64,000 bases of DNA. Source: Oscillospiraceae bacterium. GTDB lineage: Bacteria > Bacillota > Clostridia > Oscillospirales > Oscillospiraceae. Of this stretch, positions 12,595-27,794 are shown piece after piece. The notes below the pieces were generated by a model. That model had not been told where the DNA came from. It searched no databases and was given only the letters and a program-made list of their open reading frames with translations. The translations under genes were made by a program, and so were the position numbers. Numbering within the stretch: position 1 is the first letter of the stretch; every line of letters begins with the position of its first letter. The stretch covers positions 30,832-94,831 of the forward strand of contig JAFPWF010000016.1 in the NCBI GenBank assembly GCA_017395085.1. Direction: 5' to 3'.

Positions 12595-13506
12595 TCAGCC
12601 TGTCTGCTTTTGGTAGACTTCGCGGACCACGGCTTCCAGCGCCTCGGTCGCCTTGGAGTGGAACTCCCGCGAAGGCCGCGCAACGCCGAGATCCAGGAAT
12701 ACGCCCTTCTCTCCGATCCGGAACAGCTGAAGATGATCGTCCGGGTCGACACAGGAAGCGTACGTGAATGCCAGCCCGACTCCGGCCTTTGCCATTTCCA
12801 CCGCCATGGCAGCTGAAATGTTGTCATACTCCGATTCGTACTTCAGCTTGTGCTTCTGGAACAGGTTCCGCGCGATGGTGCCGAGCATCGTGTCATGGTA
12901 GCTCAGTACAAAGGGATACTGCACCGCATCCTTCAGGCTGACCCAGGGGACTCCGTCCGGACGCGGATTCGCCCTTTTGCCGAGGGGATGATCTGCGCCT
13001 GCGACGAGGTAGACCTCGTCTTTCGTCAGGGGGATGGCTTCTTTTTTGAGTTTTGCAGCAGGAAGGGCGACAACGGCCACGTCGAGCTTTCCTTCCAGCA
13101 GAAGGTCCTCCAGCTTCAGGCTGTGCGCCTCTACCACATTCACGTGCACATCAGGATACTGTTCGGCAAACAGCCGCAGAATCTTCGGAAGGGTCTGCTG
13201 GCCGCGGAAGGAACTGATGCCCAGGGTAACGCGGCCGCCTTTCATCCCCTCGCAGTCCCAAAGCTCGCGTTTGGCCTGCTTATAATCGTACAGAAGATGC
13301 CGCAGATGGTCGATGAAGACTTCACCGTTGGCAGTCGGGCGGATGCCCTTGGAGGTACGGAGAAAGAGTTTGACGCCGAGCTCGTTTTCATACTGCGTGA
13401 GAAACTGGCTGAGACTGGACTGGGACATGTAGAGCCGGTCCGCTGCCTTTGAAACACTGCCTTCTTCCGCCAGCGCGATCAGATACTGAAAGTCTTTCAG
13501 GTCCAT
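12595..13506 (-). CDS. LysR-family transcriptional regulator
   Basis: The product is 303 aa. The N-terminal winged helix-turn-helix is textbook (MDLKDFQYLIALAEEGSVSK, then AADRLYMSQSSLSQ). It is followed by a periplasmic-binding-protein-like effector domain to the C terminus. The start at 13506 is supported by AAGGAG just upstream on this strand. It is divergent from the DUF6282-permease operon, the usual arrangement for a LysR regulator and its target. The likely effector is a di- or tricarboxylate, inferred from the neighbouring genes. Confidence 0.9.
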   Translation of the reverse strand: MDLKDFQYLIALAEEGSVSKAADRLYMSQSSLSQFLTQYENELGVKLFLRTSKGIRPTANGEVFIDHLRHLLYDYKQAKRELWDCEGMKGGRVTLGISSFRGQQTLPKILRLFAEQYPDVHVNVVEAHSLKLEDLLLEGKLDVAVVALPAAKLKKEAIPLTKDEVYLVAGADHPLGKRANPRPDGVPWVSLKDAVQYPFVLSYHDTMLGTIARNLFQKHKLKYESEYDNISAAMAVEMAKAGVGLAFTYASCVDPDDHLQLFRIGEKGVFLDLGVARPSREFHSKATEALEAVVREVYQKQTG

Positions 13507-13549
13507 AACCGGCGCTCCTTTCCATTTGCTATCACTTTTTCCGATACAT

Positions 13550-13588
13550 TGCATTAAGATTCCTGCATTGCGAATTATTTCACATGCA
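13550..13588. promoter_or_regulatory. Candidate LysR operator (TGCAT repeats)
   Basis: TGCAT at 13550-13554 and 13564-13568, and the inverse ATGCA at 13584-13588. The last two form a dyad with 15 nt between arms, overlapping the -35 region of the operon promoter. This fits a LysR binding site next to its target promoter. Confidence 0.4.
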
Positions 13589-13597
13589 CTATATAAT
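13568..13597 (+). promoter_or_regulatory. Promoter for the DUF6282-permease operon
   Basis: TTGCGA (13568-13573), 18-nt spacer, perfect TATAAT (13592-13597). Confidence 0.7.
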
Positions 13598-13655
13598 AGA
13601 ATCAGCCAAAAGGCAAGAAGGAATCGGAAAACAGCGATGTGAAAGGAGAAACGGT

Positions 13656-25170: not shown

Positions 25171-25210
25171 AAAAACCTCTGACGGGTTTTGTACCGTCAG
25201 AGGTTTTTAT
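25171..25210. terminator. Bidirectional terminator between citXG and malic enzyme
   Basis: A 15-bp stem (25171-25185 with 25194-25208) flanked by As and Ts. Confidence 0.92.
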
Positions 25211-25223
25211 CGTTTGATCCGGC

Positions 25224-26399
25224 TCAGATTCTGGCGACGCCGCTTTCGCGGGCGGCTTTGGCCGCAGCGGCCGCAACGGCGTCCTTCACCCGGGGGTCAA
25301 AGGCTTTCGGCAGAATATAGTCGGCCGTAAGTTCTTCGTCGGAAACCAGGCCTGCAATCGCTTCCGCCGCGGCAAGCTTCATTTCATCGTTGATGTCGCT
25401 GGCCCGCACGTCCAGTGCCCCGCGGAAGATCCCCGGGAAGCACAGCACGTTGTTGACCTGGTTCGGGTAATCCGAGCGCCCGGTCGAAACGACCGCTGCG
25501 CCGCCCGCCCTGGCGTCTTCGGGGAAGATTTCCGGAGTCGGGTTGGCGCAGGCGAAAATGATCGCGTCTCGGTTCATCGTCCGCACCATTTCCGTGGTCA
25601 GGATGCCGGGAGCCGAAACACCGATGAACACGTCCGCCCCTGCCAGCACTTCGGCAAGGCTGCCCTTCCGAAGCAGGAGGTTTGTAATCCCGGCGATTTC
25701 CTGCTTGGCGGAGTTCATATGCTCCGTCCTGCCGTTCCAGATGGCGCCGTTCCGGTCGCAGAGCGTGACGTCAACAGCGCCCGCGGTGATCAGAAGCTTC
25801 GTGATGGCCGTCGCCGCGGCGCCGGCGCCGTTGAGGACAATGCGCACTTCCGGCAGCTTTTTCCCAACCAGCTTCAGCGCGTTTGTCAGCCCTGCAAGGG
25901 TGATGACGGCCGTCCCGTGCTGGTCGTCATGGAAGACGGGGATATCGCAGCATTCCTTGAGCCGCCGCTCGATTTCAAAACAGCGCGGTGCGGAGATGTC
26001 TTCGAGGTTGATGCCGCCGAAGGATTTTGAAATGAGCCGTACCGTGCTGACAATCTCGTCCACATCCTTGCTGTCGATGCAGAGGGGAACGGCGTCCACA
26101 TCGCCGAAAGCCTTGAACAGGACGCATTTGCCTTCCATCACGGGCATTCCTGCCTCCGGGCCGATGTCACCGAGCCCGAGAACGGCTGTCCCGTCCGTGA
26201 TGACGGCGACCATGTTCCAGCGGCGCGTGAGCTCAAAACTCCTGGAGGGATCCTTCTGGATTTCCAGGCAGGGGGCGGCCACGCCGGGGGTGTAGGCAAG
26301 GCTCAGCGATTCCGCATCGTTGACGGAAGCGCGTGAGACCACTTCCAGCTTGCCCTTCCATTCGTAGTGCTTTTCGAGGGATGATTTCGAATAATCCAT
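25224..26399 (-). CDS. Malic enzyme (decarboxylating malate dehydrogenase)
   Basis: The product is 391 aa, the short bacterial form without a phosphotransacetylase-like extension. Visible: the N-terminal LSLAYTPGVAAPCLEI, VITDGTAVLGLGDIGPEAG, the catalytic-Lys region MPVMEGKCVLFKAF, IPVFHDDQHGTAVI and the Rossmann motif LNGAGAAA. It interconverts malate and pyruvate plus CO2 with NAD(P)H; coenzyme preference is not evident. It is downstream of fumarase by 18 nt in one minus-strand operon that converges with the cit genes. AGGAGG precedes the start. Confidence 0.94.
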   Translation of the reverse strand: MDYSKSSLEKHYEWKGKLEVVSRASVNDAESLSLAYTPGVAAPCLEIQKDPSRSFELTRRWNMVAVITDGTAVLGLGDIGPEAGMPVMEGKCVLFKAFGDVDAVPLCIDSKDVDEIVSTVRLISKSFGGINLEDISAPRCFEIERRLKECCDIPVFHDDQHGTAVITLAGLTNALKLVGKKLPEVRIVLNGAGAAATAITKLLITAGAVDVTLCDRNGAIWNGRTEHMNSAKQEIAGITNLLLRKGSLAEVLAGADVFIGVSAPGILTTEMVRTMNRDAIIFACANPTPEIFPEDARAGGAAVVSTGRSDYPNQVNNVLCFPGIFRGALDVRASDINDEMKLAAAEAIAGLVSDEELTADYILPKAFDPRVKDAVAAAAAKAARESGVARI

Positions 26400-26417
26400 A
26401 GGACTTCGCGCCTCCTG

Positions 26418-27794
26418 TCAAACCATGTCTTCCGGGCGGAGTACTTCGTCAAAGCGTTCCGCAGTCAGAAATCCCAGCCTCACGCAGGCTTCCTTCAGAG
26501 AGATGTTTTCCGAATAGGCGAGCTTTGCCGTTCTGGCCGCGTTTTCATAACCGATCACCGGGTTCAGCGCCGTGACCAGCATCAGCGAGCTGTGCAGGTT
26601 GCGGCGCATGGTTTCCTCATTTGCCTGAATGCCGCTGGCACAGTTCTTTGTAAACGCGAGGATGGACTCGGACAGCAGGCGGACGGACTGCAGGAAGTTG
26701 TATGCGATAACCGGCAGAAAGACATTCAGCTCAAAGTTCCCCTGCGATGCGGCAAAACCGATCGCCGCGTCGTTGCCCATGACCTGAACTGCCACCATGG
26801 TGACCTGCTCGCACTGGGTCGGGTTCACCTTGCCCGGCATGATGGAACTGCCGGGCTCGTTTTCCGGAATGCGGATCTCACCCAGACCGCAGCGGGGGCC
26901 GGAAGCCAGCCAGCGCACGTCGTTTGCAATTTTCATCATGTCGGCGGCCAGCGCCTTGACCGCCCCGTGCGCAAAGACCAGCTCGTCGCGCGAGGTGAGC
27001 GCGTGGAATTTGTTTGCAGCCGTGATAAACGGTTTTCCCGTGAGCGCTGCGATTTCCTGTGCCGCAAGTTCCGCAAATCCCTCGGGCGCATTCAGCCCCG
27101 TGCCGACCGCGGTACCGCCGAGGGCGAGTTCGTGCAGGGGGCCGAGGGAGAACCGGATCAGCTCGCGGTCACGCTCCAGGGAACTGCGCCATCCGCTGAT
27201 TTCCTGTGAGAAGGCAATCGGCACGGCGTCCTGGAGATGGGTCCGGCCGCTCTTGACGATCCCGGCGTGCCGTTCTTCCAATTCCTTCAGGGCGGAGATC
27301 AGTTCCTCCGCAGCCGGCAGAAGCCGGTCTTCCAGCGAGAGGACTGCGGCGATATGCATGGCGGCCGGGAAGGTGTCGTTGGAGGACTGGCTCATGTTCA
27401 CATCGTCGTTCGGATGGCAGAGCTTCCGCCCGGCCAGTTCGTTTGCCCGGTTGGCGATCACCTCGTTGGCGTTCATGTTGGACTGGGTGCCCGACCCCGT
27501 CTGCCAGACCACCAGCGGGAAATGGCCGTCGAGCGTCCCGGACGACACCTCACGGGCTGCGGTTTCGATCACAGCCAGTTTTTCCGCCGTCATCTTTTCC
27601 GGCAGCAGCTTATGGTTTGCCCGGGCGGCTGCCTGCTTCAGAATGCCGAAGGCGTGGGTGATCTCCCGCGGCATGGTTTCGATGCCCACGCCGATGGGGA
27701 AGTTATCCCGGCTTCGCTGTGTCTGCGCGCCCCAGTATCTGTCGGCGGGGACGCGGATCTCACCCATGGAATCGTGTTCAATCCGGTCGGTCAT
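26418..27794 (-). CDS. fumC: Fumarate hydratase class II
   Basis: The product is 458 aa. It carries the fumarase/aspartase superfamily signature GSSIMPGKVNPTQ, the substrate loop SGRTHLQDAVPIAFSQE, and HPNDDVNMSQSSNDTFP. The long N-terminal match (IEHDSMGEIRVPADRYWGAQ) fits FumC rather than AspA or PurB. It hydrates fumarate to malate, which the co-transcribed malic enzyme can use; together they join C4 acids to pyruvate next to the citrate lyase genes. Confidence 0.94.
   Translation of the reverse strand: MTDRIEHDSMGEIRVPADRYWGAQTQRSRDNFPIGVGIETMPREITHAFGILKQAAARANHKLLPEKMTAEKLAVIETAAREVSSGTLDGHFPLVVWQTGSGTQSNMNANEVIANRANELAGRKLCHPNDDVNMSQSSNDTFPAAMHIAAVLSLEDRLLPAAEELISALKELEERHAGIVKSGRTHLQDAVPIAFSQEISGWRSSLERDRELIRFSLGPLHELALGGTAVGTGLNAPEGFAELAAQEIAALTGKPFITAANKFHALTSRDELVFAHGAVKALAADMMKIANDVRWLASGPRCGLGEIRIPENEPGSSIMPGKVNPTQCEQVTMVAVQVMGNDAAIGFAASQGNFELNVFLPVIAYNFLQSVRLLSESILAFTKNCASGIQANEETMRRNLHSSLMLVTALNPVIGYENAARTAKLAYSENISLKEACVRLGFLTAERFDEVLRPEDMV

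Follow-up and report, generated by a model that had tools for sequence, protein, structure and literature searches.

A LysR-linked DUF6282–permease module as a possible entry of isocitrate into citrate fermentation in Clostridia

Comparison of a citrate fermentation locus from an Oscillospiraceae bacterium with its relatives suggests, with a confidence that we put at about the midpoint, that a LysR-controlled module feeds isocitrate into fermentation. The locus lies in a 64,000-nucleotide stretch of contig JAFPWF010000016.1 (the window), part of a draft genome of 2.52 Mb that is 84.5% complete. From 12595 to 25139 the window carries a LysR gene on the minus strand and then, all on the plus strand, genes for a DUF6282 protein, a MatC_N/CitMHS permease, a YbhJ-family hydratase, citD, citE, citF, a CitMHS carrier, citC and citXG. 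Malic enzyme and fumarase C genes converge on the cit run from the opposite side.

In the proposed route the compound taken up by the MatC-type permease would be a derivative of isocitrate. Its gamma-lactone is the most likely one; being chemically a dicarboxylate, it fits this family of carriers. DUF6282, a barrel like those of the amidohydrolase superfamily, would hydrolyse the lactone, or another derivative, to isocitrate. In the host the YbhJ-family aconitase would convert isocitrate into citrate, which citrate lyase, once CitC and CitXG have activated it, would split into acetate and oxaloacetate; CitMHS would import free citrate for the same lyase. Relatives without an aconitase would pass isocitrate directly to isocitrate dehydrogenase. 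The choice of the lactone as substrate is drawn by analogy and is tentative, a little short of an even chance. The case is built by comparing sequences: gene content, a predicted operator, the swapping of partner genes, and an apparent lack of any aconitase but LeuC in most dehydrogenase-type genomes without YbhJ.

Results

An alignment of 13 DUF6282 sequences was used to scan 84,980 species genomes, and 341 relatives were confirmed. The locus counts that follow hold for the best 80 of these (59–93% identity), mostly labelled as gut and rumen Clostridia, and not for the whole DUF6282 family; all loci were found through DUF6282. LysR lies within 1.2 kb of DUF6282 in 74 of the 80 and the permease within 0.4 kb in 73 (the permease of locus L191 was missed in this count and identified separately). 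Judged by this gene order, LysR, DUF6282 and the permease are the conserved core in Clostridia. Within 8 kb of DUF6282 we found YbhJ in 38 loci, citDEF in 12, CitC or CitXG in 15, isocitrate dehydrogenase in 12, PrpF in four and CitMHS or CitS in nine. These counts are slightly generous because the YbhJ entry of L197 is a 25%-identical LeuC-sized relative and the low-identity CitXG matches may include other CitG-like proteins. At least one gene of this tricarboxylate set is present in 52/80 loci; among the 37 loci with full 8-kb flanks, 24 have at least one and 13 have none. Of the ortholog-bearing genomes, 47 of the 80 were covered for CitF; it was detected in 41 of these, in one by a fragment only.

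Two further arrangements were seen in this set. In L174 (212–6167) LysR and DUF6282 share one strand, and the opposite strand, on the far side of LysR, holds YbhJ and a CitMHS-family carrier (39%); no MatC-type permease follows DUF6282 there, so the carrier may be exchangeable. In L139, L143 and L144 genes for a CitS citrate/sodium symporter, PrpF, YbhJ and a member of the isocitrate/isopropylmalate-dehydrogenase family form an operon-like row that also contains a second DUF6282 copy (52–54% identity).

The product of the module is suggested by its dehydrogenase-linked members. Isocitrate dehydrogenase stands directly beside the module in ten loci, as the NADP type in L146, L152, L155, L156, L160, L188 and L191 and as the NAD type in L169, L170 and L172. 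YbhJ was found in 37 of 45 genomes searched (45 of the 80), over the cut-off in 36, and was not found in the other eight, those of L146, L155, L160, L169, L170, L172, L180 and L188. Seven of these eight have isocitrate dehydrogenase beside the module. The exception, L180 (genome G180, 9977–11433), keeps an intact DUF6282 gene beside a truncated permease open reading frame (ORF) and lacks the dehydrogenase that the near-identical L172 arrangement has; it looks like a decaying copy of that arrangement. Of the 37 genomes that do have YbhJ, L156 alone has a dehydrogenase directly beside the module; in L176 and L199 one lies 6.5–7.6 kb away. The sole aconitase-family (PF00330) ORF in L146, L155, L160, L170, L172 and L180 is LeuC, and in L188 (Peptoniphilus grossensis) no PF00330 ORF was found, not even LeuC. 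Six of the seven dehydrogenase-linked genomes without YbhJ thus yielded no aconitase-family gene except LeuC. In such genomes neither cis-aconitate nor citrate could reach isocitrate dehydrogenase, and the module should therefore deliver isocitrate itself. By this comparison isocitrate is likely to be the simplest common product of the module.

In a tree of 73 DUF6282 sequences the dehydrogenase-labelled rows form one cluster, with L156, L188 and L191 elsewhere, and to explain the label at least five gains or losses are required on well-supported branches. Rows that end at a contig edge were scored as ‘none’, which makes it uncertain how often the dehydrogenase was really recruited, and a dehydrogenase link that arose at least five times is weakened as a claim. 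The odds of the isocitrate reading are unchanged by this, since it is the aconitase-free genomes that carry the argument. No PF00180 family gene was found in G067 (97% complete), and the sole PF00180 gene of the host has tartrate dehydrogenase as its nearest model, whose cut-off it does not reach; the YbhJ–citrate lyase route is thus the likely outlet in both. Elsewhere in the host genome (locus L233, C61) a tartrate-dehydrogenase-like gene adjoins what appears by eye to be a tartrate dehydratase subunit, so this bacterium may also use tartrate.

Within the genus, 149 genomes including the host were surveyed and 60 loci fetched. Sixteen genomes have a DUF6282 match over the cut-off. Close orthologs (64–93% identity) occur in nine relatives and the window; the remaining matches are distant paralogues at about 30%. 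Each of the ten ortholog loci has a divergent LysR on one side of DUF6282 and the permease on the other, and nine have the YbhJ hydratase next (split into two ORFs in G031), completing a trio with DUF6282 and the permease; the tenth (G068) ends at a contig edge. The window layout is far beyond chance, because LysR-DUF6282-permease-YbhJ recurs in related genomes. citDEF adjoin the trio in G000 and G014, and in G060 CitE/CitF lie some kilobases upstream. By hand count, CitF (E below 1e-30) is present in 10/10 trio genomes vs 21/139 others. Sister modules with PrpF also occur, as PrpF-citDEF-YbhJ (L061), citE-citD-PrpF-citF-YbhJ (L104) and YbhJ-PrpF-permease sets (L085, L086, L087, L089 and L090).

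The LysR–DUF6282 intergenic region holds a near-palindrome, ATCGG-N5-CCGAT, a predicted LysR box of the T-N11-A form that such boxes follow. It recurs with at most two mismatches in 51 of 61 orthologous intergenic regions and with three to six in the other ten; a control of one plain shuffle per region never gave better than four. In the window, 13531–13545 is the sole match with at most two mismatches. Among loci with two or more sites, the only ones listed for second copies, L135, L161, L168 and L183 have another copy between LysR and YbhJ, ahead of YbhJ; L142 and L184 have one between YbhJ and another, divergent LysR, and L182 has one near YbhJ. L135, L149, L161, L168 and L181 carry YbhJ and cit genes beyond LysR, on the strand opposite to DUF6282; L184 does too, with a second LysR between. 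Because of the common operator and this layout around LysR, one regulator plausibly governs the DUF6282-permease and YbhJ-cit sets in these species. Scanning 25 genomes with at most one mismatch gave 57 sites in 24 genomes against five control matches. Sites were compared by eye with the mapped YbhJ places (G196 lies outside the YbhJ map). The YbhJ genes with an operator in front (G152, G171, G174 and G181) all adjoin the module. A regulon reaching remote YbhJ-citDEF is unsupported, since only module-adjacent YbhJ had a site in front.

The DUF6282 protein matches PF19799 with 215.6 bits (cut-off 26.8) over positions 1–195 of 196. It has the (beta/alpha)8 barrel fold of the amidohydrolase superfamily, and we are confident that it is an amidohydrolase-type barrel. 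H13, H15, H155, H180 and D241 are invariant in alignments of 13 and of 32 sequences; by hand count they fall at or just past the matching strands, as HxH after strand 1, His after strands 5 and 6 and Asp after strand 8. Their catalytic and metal-binding roles are presumably those of the superfamily. R21 and R54, conserved without exception among the orthologs though not among the paralogues, are candidate carboxylate-binding residues. A sequence search of solved structures returned eight matches, all designed barrels (best E 0.008), and among viral contigs three stretches had the DUF6282 pattern, none of them a confirmed relative. The term DUF6282 was found in none of the open-licence PMC papers searched. 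In the same genus, distant paralogues (about 30%; L108–L115) adjoin TRAP/tripartite carriers, an HMG-CoA-lyase-like aldolase, a CoA transferase and a mandelate-racemase/muconate-lactonizing-like enzyme. No YbhJ or cit gene stands alongside them in the loci seen, and one has malic enzyme. These varied neighbours suggest that the family may serve many organic acids.

The hydratase scores 1236 bits with NF008503 (YbhJ/PRK11413), against an NCBIfam cut-off of 641. Its C366, C427 and C430 align with C358, C421 and C424 of pig aconitase, for which we assume the usual numbering and Fe–S ligand roles; the DSH motif, a Glu and both arginines of RNF...R also match. In nine sister loci YbhJ paralogues, which form one clade (support 99), accompany NADP isocitrate dehydrogenase, and five of these (L072, L078, L079, L102 and L103) also have a gene of the homocitrate/isopropylmalate synthase family, which we read as Re-citrate synthase. 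A quick tree groups the window YbhJ with DUF6282-linked members, with others that have no recognised neighbours, and with a single one linked to PrpF-citDEF (L061). This placement and the context of the sister clade fit aconitase chemistry, as far as sequences can indicate it. YbhJ as a marker of citrate lyase only was rejected: other YbhJ genes adjoin isocitrate dehydrogenase and Re-citrate-synthase-like genes, PrpF, or fumarase. In L082 (G088) and L083 (G070) a YbhJ paralogue (63%) adjoins a fumarase C that is 84–85% identical to that of the window; an iron-containing alcohol dehydrogenase, typed in L083, is the next neighbour.

The features of the locus are collected in Table 1. An earlier note on this DNA had listed the genes from LysR to citXG and the three cysteines of the hydratase; every named gene was found in its place and the cysteines were borne out by the pig aconitase alignment. 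The citrate lyase set is complete (citD, citE, citF, citC, citX and citG). CitD, CitF, CitC and CitX exceed their NCBIfam cut-offs; CitE (369 bits, cut-off 443), CitG (244, cut-off 272) and CitMHS (236, cut-off 260) fall under theirs, and each cit protein and CitMHS is over its main Pfam cut-off. Family searches found no PrpF among the genes of 12595–25139, although it does occur in sister loci such as L061 and L104. The starts of LysR, DUF6282, citE and citF were picked from listed start codons, that of DUF6282 also by alignment. Directly after fumarase, 27978–31637 encodes a CotH-kinase-domain protein and a Cthe_2159-type carbohydrate-binding protein; G+C falls to 0.50 at 28001–30000.

Table 1. 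Features of the citrate fermentation locus (window positions)
Feature	Coordinates	Strand	Basis and remarks
LysR-type regulator	12595..13506	-	PF00126/PF03466 (Pfam); ORF opens 13554, probable start 13506 by sequence
Candidate LysR operator	13531..13545	.	ATCACTTTTTCCGAT, 2 mismatches vs conserved ATCGGTTTTTCCGAT
DUF6282 metal-hydrolase-like protein, 287 aa	13656..14519	+	PF19799; ORF opens 13584
Ion-transporter (MatC_N/CitMHS) permease	14538..15854	+	PF07158, PF03600; presumed importer of DUF6282 substrate
YbhJ-family aconitase-type hydratase, Fe-S cysteines C366, C427, C430	15980..18253	+	NF008503 1236 bits; pig aconitase alignment
citD, citrate lyase acyl carrier protein	18387..18734	+	TIGR01608, PF06857; approximate start
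citE, citrate lyase beta subunit	18731..19633	+	PF03328 236 bits; TIGR01588 369 bits (cut-off 443); ORF opens 18671
citF, citrate lyase alpha subunit	19635..21197	+	TIGR01584 627 bits, PF04223; ORF opens 19569
CitMHS-family citrate carrier	21249..22661	+	PF03600; TIGR00784 236 bits, below cut-off 260
citC, citrate lyase ligase	22750..23793	+	TIGR00124 287 bits; start 22750 TTG or 22756 ATG
citXG, fused prosthetic-group transferase and synthase	23793..25139	+	PF03802 and PF01874; TIGR03124 over, TIGR03125 under cut-off
Malic enzyme	25224..26399	-	PF00390/PF03949; neighbour, judged outside module
Fumarase C	26418..27794	-	PF00206/PF10415; neighbour, judged outside module

Discussion

Several observations weigh against the proposed route. 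Lactonase chemistry is argued from fold analogy and a dicarboxylate carrier, and K45, invariant in both DUF6282 alignments, and K101, invariant in that of 13 sequences, are not placed as metal ligands. In the hydratase GDGSARE matches pig GEGSSRE, but the alignment scores just 3.5 bits there, and pig D100 is aligned with a Cys. Aconitases were searched by PF00330 only and dehydrogenases by PF00180 only, and absences in drafts are soft. The L169 genome also has a PRK07229-type aconitase, and that of L191 has three LeuC/homoaconitase-sized ORFs, one of them typed. Two dehydrogenase-linked genomes also have YbhJ, whole in L152 and as fragments in L156; the L152 permease (4426–4867) is without its middle (query residues 176–365), with DUF6282 and isocitrate dehydrogenase alongside whole or nearly so. 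The trio genomes G014, G022 and G031 have both YbhJ and NADP isocitrate dehydrogenase; the two outlets are therefore not exclusive, and strict exclusion of YbhJ and the dehydrogenase is ruled out by these three and L152. Remote YbhJ genes had no operator (at most one mismatch) alongside in the genomes compared. Finally, a tricarboxylate gene is missing from the 8 kb around DUF6282 in 28/80 loci, of which 13 have complete flanks.

It is unlikely, but deserves weight, that DUF6282 acts on trans-aconitate, either as a hydratase giving isocitrate or as an isomerase replacing PrpF and giving cis-aconitate. LigJ is an amidohydrolase-fold hydratase of unsaturated tricarboxylates, so enzymes of this kind exist, and the layout recurs in E. 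coli ybhD | ybhH-ybhI-ybhJ, where the PrpF homologue ybhH takes the position of DUF6282. It is also known that trans-aconitate can be fermented by way of citrate (PMC3035267, in the part used here). The isomerase form, however, needs an aconitase, and six dehydrogenase-type genomes show none but LeuC. Moreover, G067 holds a DUF6282 module and a separate YbhJ-PrpF-permease module, the carrier of which is only 24% like that of the window; across groups, PrpF-linked and DUF6282-linked carriers are just 23–31% identical (471 pairs), and L139, L143 and L144 hold two DUF6282 copies plus PrpF. DUF6282 as a stand-in isomerase for PrpF is thus weakened both by the genomes with LeuC as their sole aconitase relative and by the two modules of G067.

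We consider it improbable that the permease imports isocitrate itself, with DUF6282 as an accessory that, for example, reopens spontaneously formed lactone (repair) or acts on a minor conjugate. The partner genes would point to isocitrate in this case too, and adjacency of DUF6282 and permease in 73/80 loci fits a joint but not necessarily sequential role. L152 and L180, where the permease is broken and DUF6282 intact, are unlike what a dispensable accessory would leave. Loss of DUF6282 could not show in a survey that found all loci through it. Least probable by far is that DUF6282 and the permease serve an unrelated organic acid and stand beside citrate genes by convenience. The neighbours of the distant paralogues and the 28 loci without a tricarboxylate gene would suit such a role; against it stand the 52 loci that have one, the dehydrogenase-linked members in several places of the tree, the operator common in some loci to the DUF6282-permease and YbhJ-cit genes, and the distribution of CitF between trio and other genomes.

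Isocitrate supply remains our preferred reading, and the claims of the earlier note can be set against it. That the trio feeds another compound into citrate lyase is supported by the CitF counts and the common operator, with the change that citrate lyase is not the only outlet. From its list of substrates, isocitrate or a tricarboxylate lactone is now favoured through the comparison with dehydrogenase-type genomes. The note had held that a trio usually found without citrate lyase would make the link coincidental; the outcome on this point is mixed, as citDEF lie within 8 kb in only 12/80 loci, but citF usually occurs at another place in the genome. Its inclusion of fumarase and malic enzyme in the pathway is rejected, as neither gene occurs within 8 kb of DUF6282 in any of the 80 loci.

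We judge the evidence evenly balanced on the wider proposal that DUF6282 is an undescribed enzyme making isocitrate from a plant tricarboxylate derivative that the cell takes up (an isocitrate lactonase, or a trans-aconitate hydratase). With the permease it would then define how isocitrate enters either the citrate-lyase route or oxidative metabolism in Clostridia of gut and rumen at large. This would give DUF6282, a domain of unassigned function, a testable reaction and product, and would explain the presence of a YbhJ-family hydratase inside a citrate lyase operon. Many of these Clostridia may use isocitrate-type plant acids, for which we found no gene-level description in the open-licence PMC literature. 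No paper on isocitrate lactone in bacteria was found there, and none by title on bacterial catabolism of isocitrate (its use, transport or a lactonase).

Comparison with known systems

The closest layout is that of E. coli ybhD-ybhHIJ, where the first enzyme is likewise followed by a carrier and then by a YbhJ-family hydratase (59% to that of the window); ybhD, annotated as the regulator YbhD, is presumably the divergent LysR. The systems differ in that the first position there belongs not to DUF6282 but to ybhH, which is homologous to PrpF (39% to that of L061, 213 bits), and that no citrate lyase lies in the 10 kb viewed; the E. coli function is itself putative. With the amidohydrolase superfamily lactonases (phosphotriesterase-like), a superfamily to which the lactonase LigI belongs, DUF6282 shares the TIM barrel and the HxH, two further His and Asp at strand ends, but it has no clear sequence relation to any solved structure. 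The citrate fermentation cluster citCDEFXG is matched by the full structural and maturation set of the window plus the CitMHS carrier; the difference is the DUF6282-permease-YbhJ unit that precedes the cit genes.

The tar operon of Bacillus (TarA/TarB) handles trans-aconitate through a PrpF-family isomerase and a major facilitator superfamily (MFS) carrier (PMC11495376). As far as the portion of that paper used here goes, it is alike in combining tricarboxylate import with one enzyme leading to a central intermediate under its own regulator, and unlike in being a two-gene operon with a PrpF-superfamily isomerase and an MFS carrier and without DUF6282, hydratase or citrate lyase. Acidaminococcus fermentans ferments trans-aconitate via citrate to oxaloacetate and pyruvate (PMC3035267). 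Here too a tricarboxylate other than citrate is routed through citrate, and aconitase-family and MatC-type genes are listed; entry is at aconitate, and DUF6282 is unmentioned in the part of the paper drawn on. The earlier note's suggestion of an undescribed entry route to citrate fermentation is narrowed by this precedent: aconitase-type entry to citrate lyase is already known, while entry at isocitrate, with a role for DUF6282, seems to be a new variant.

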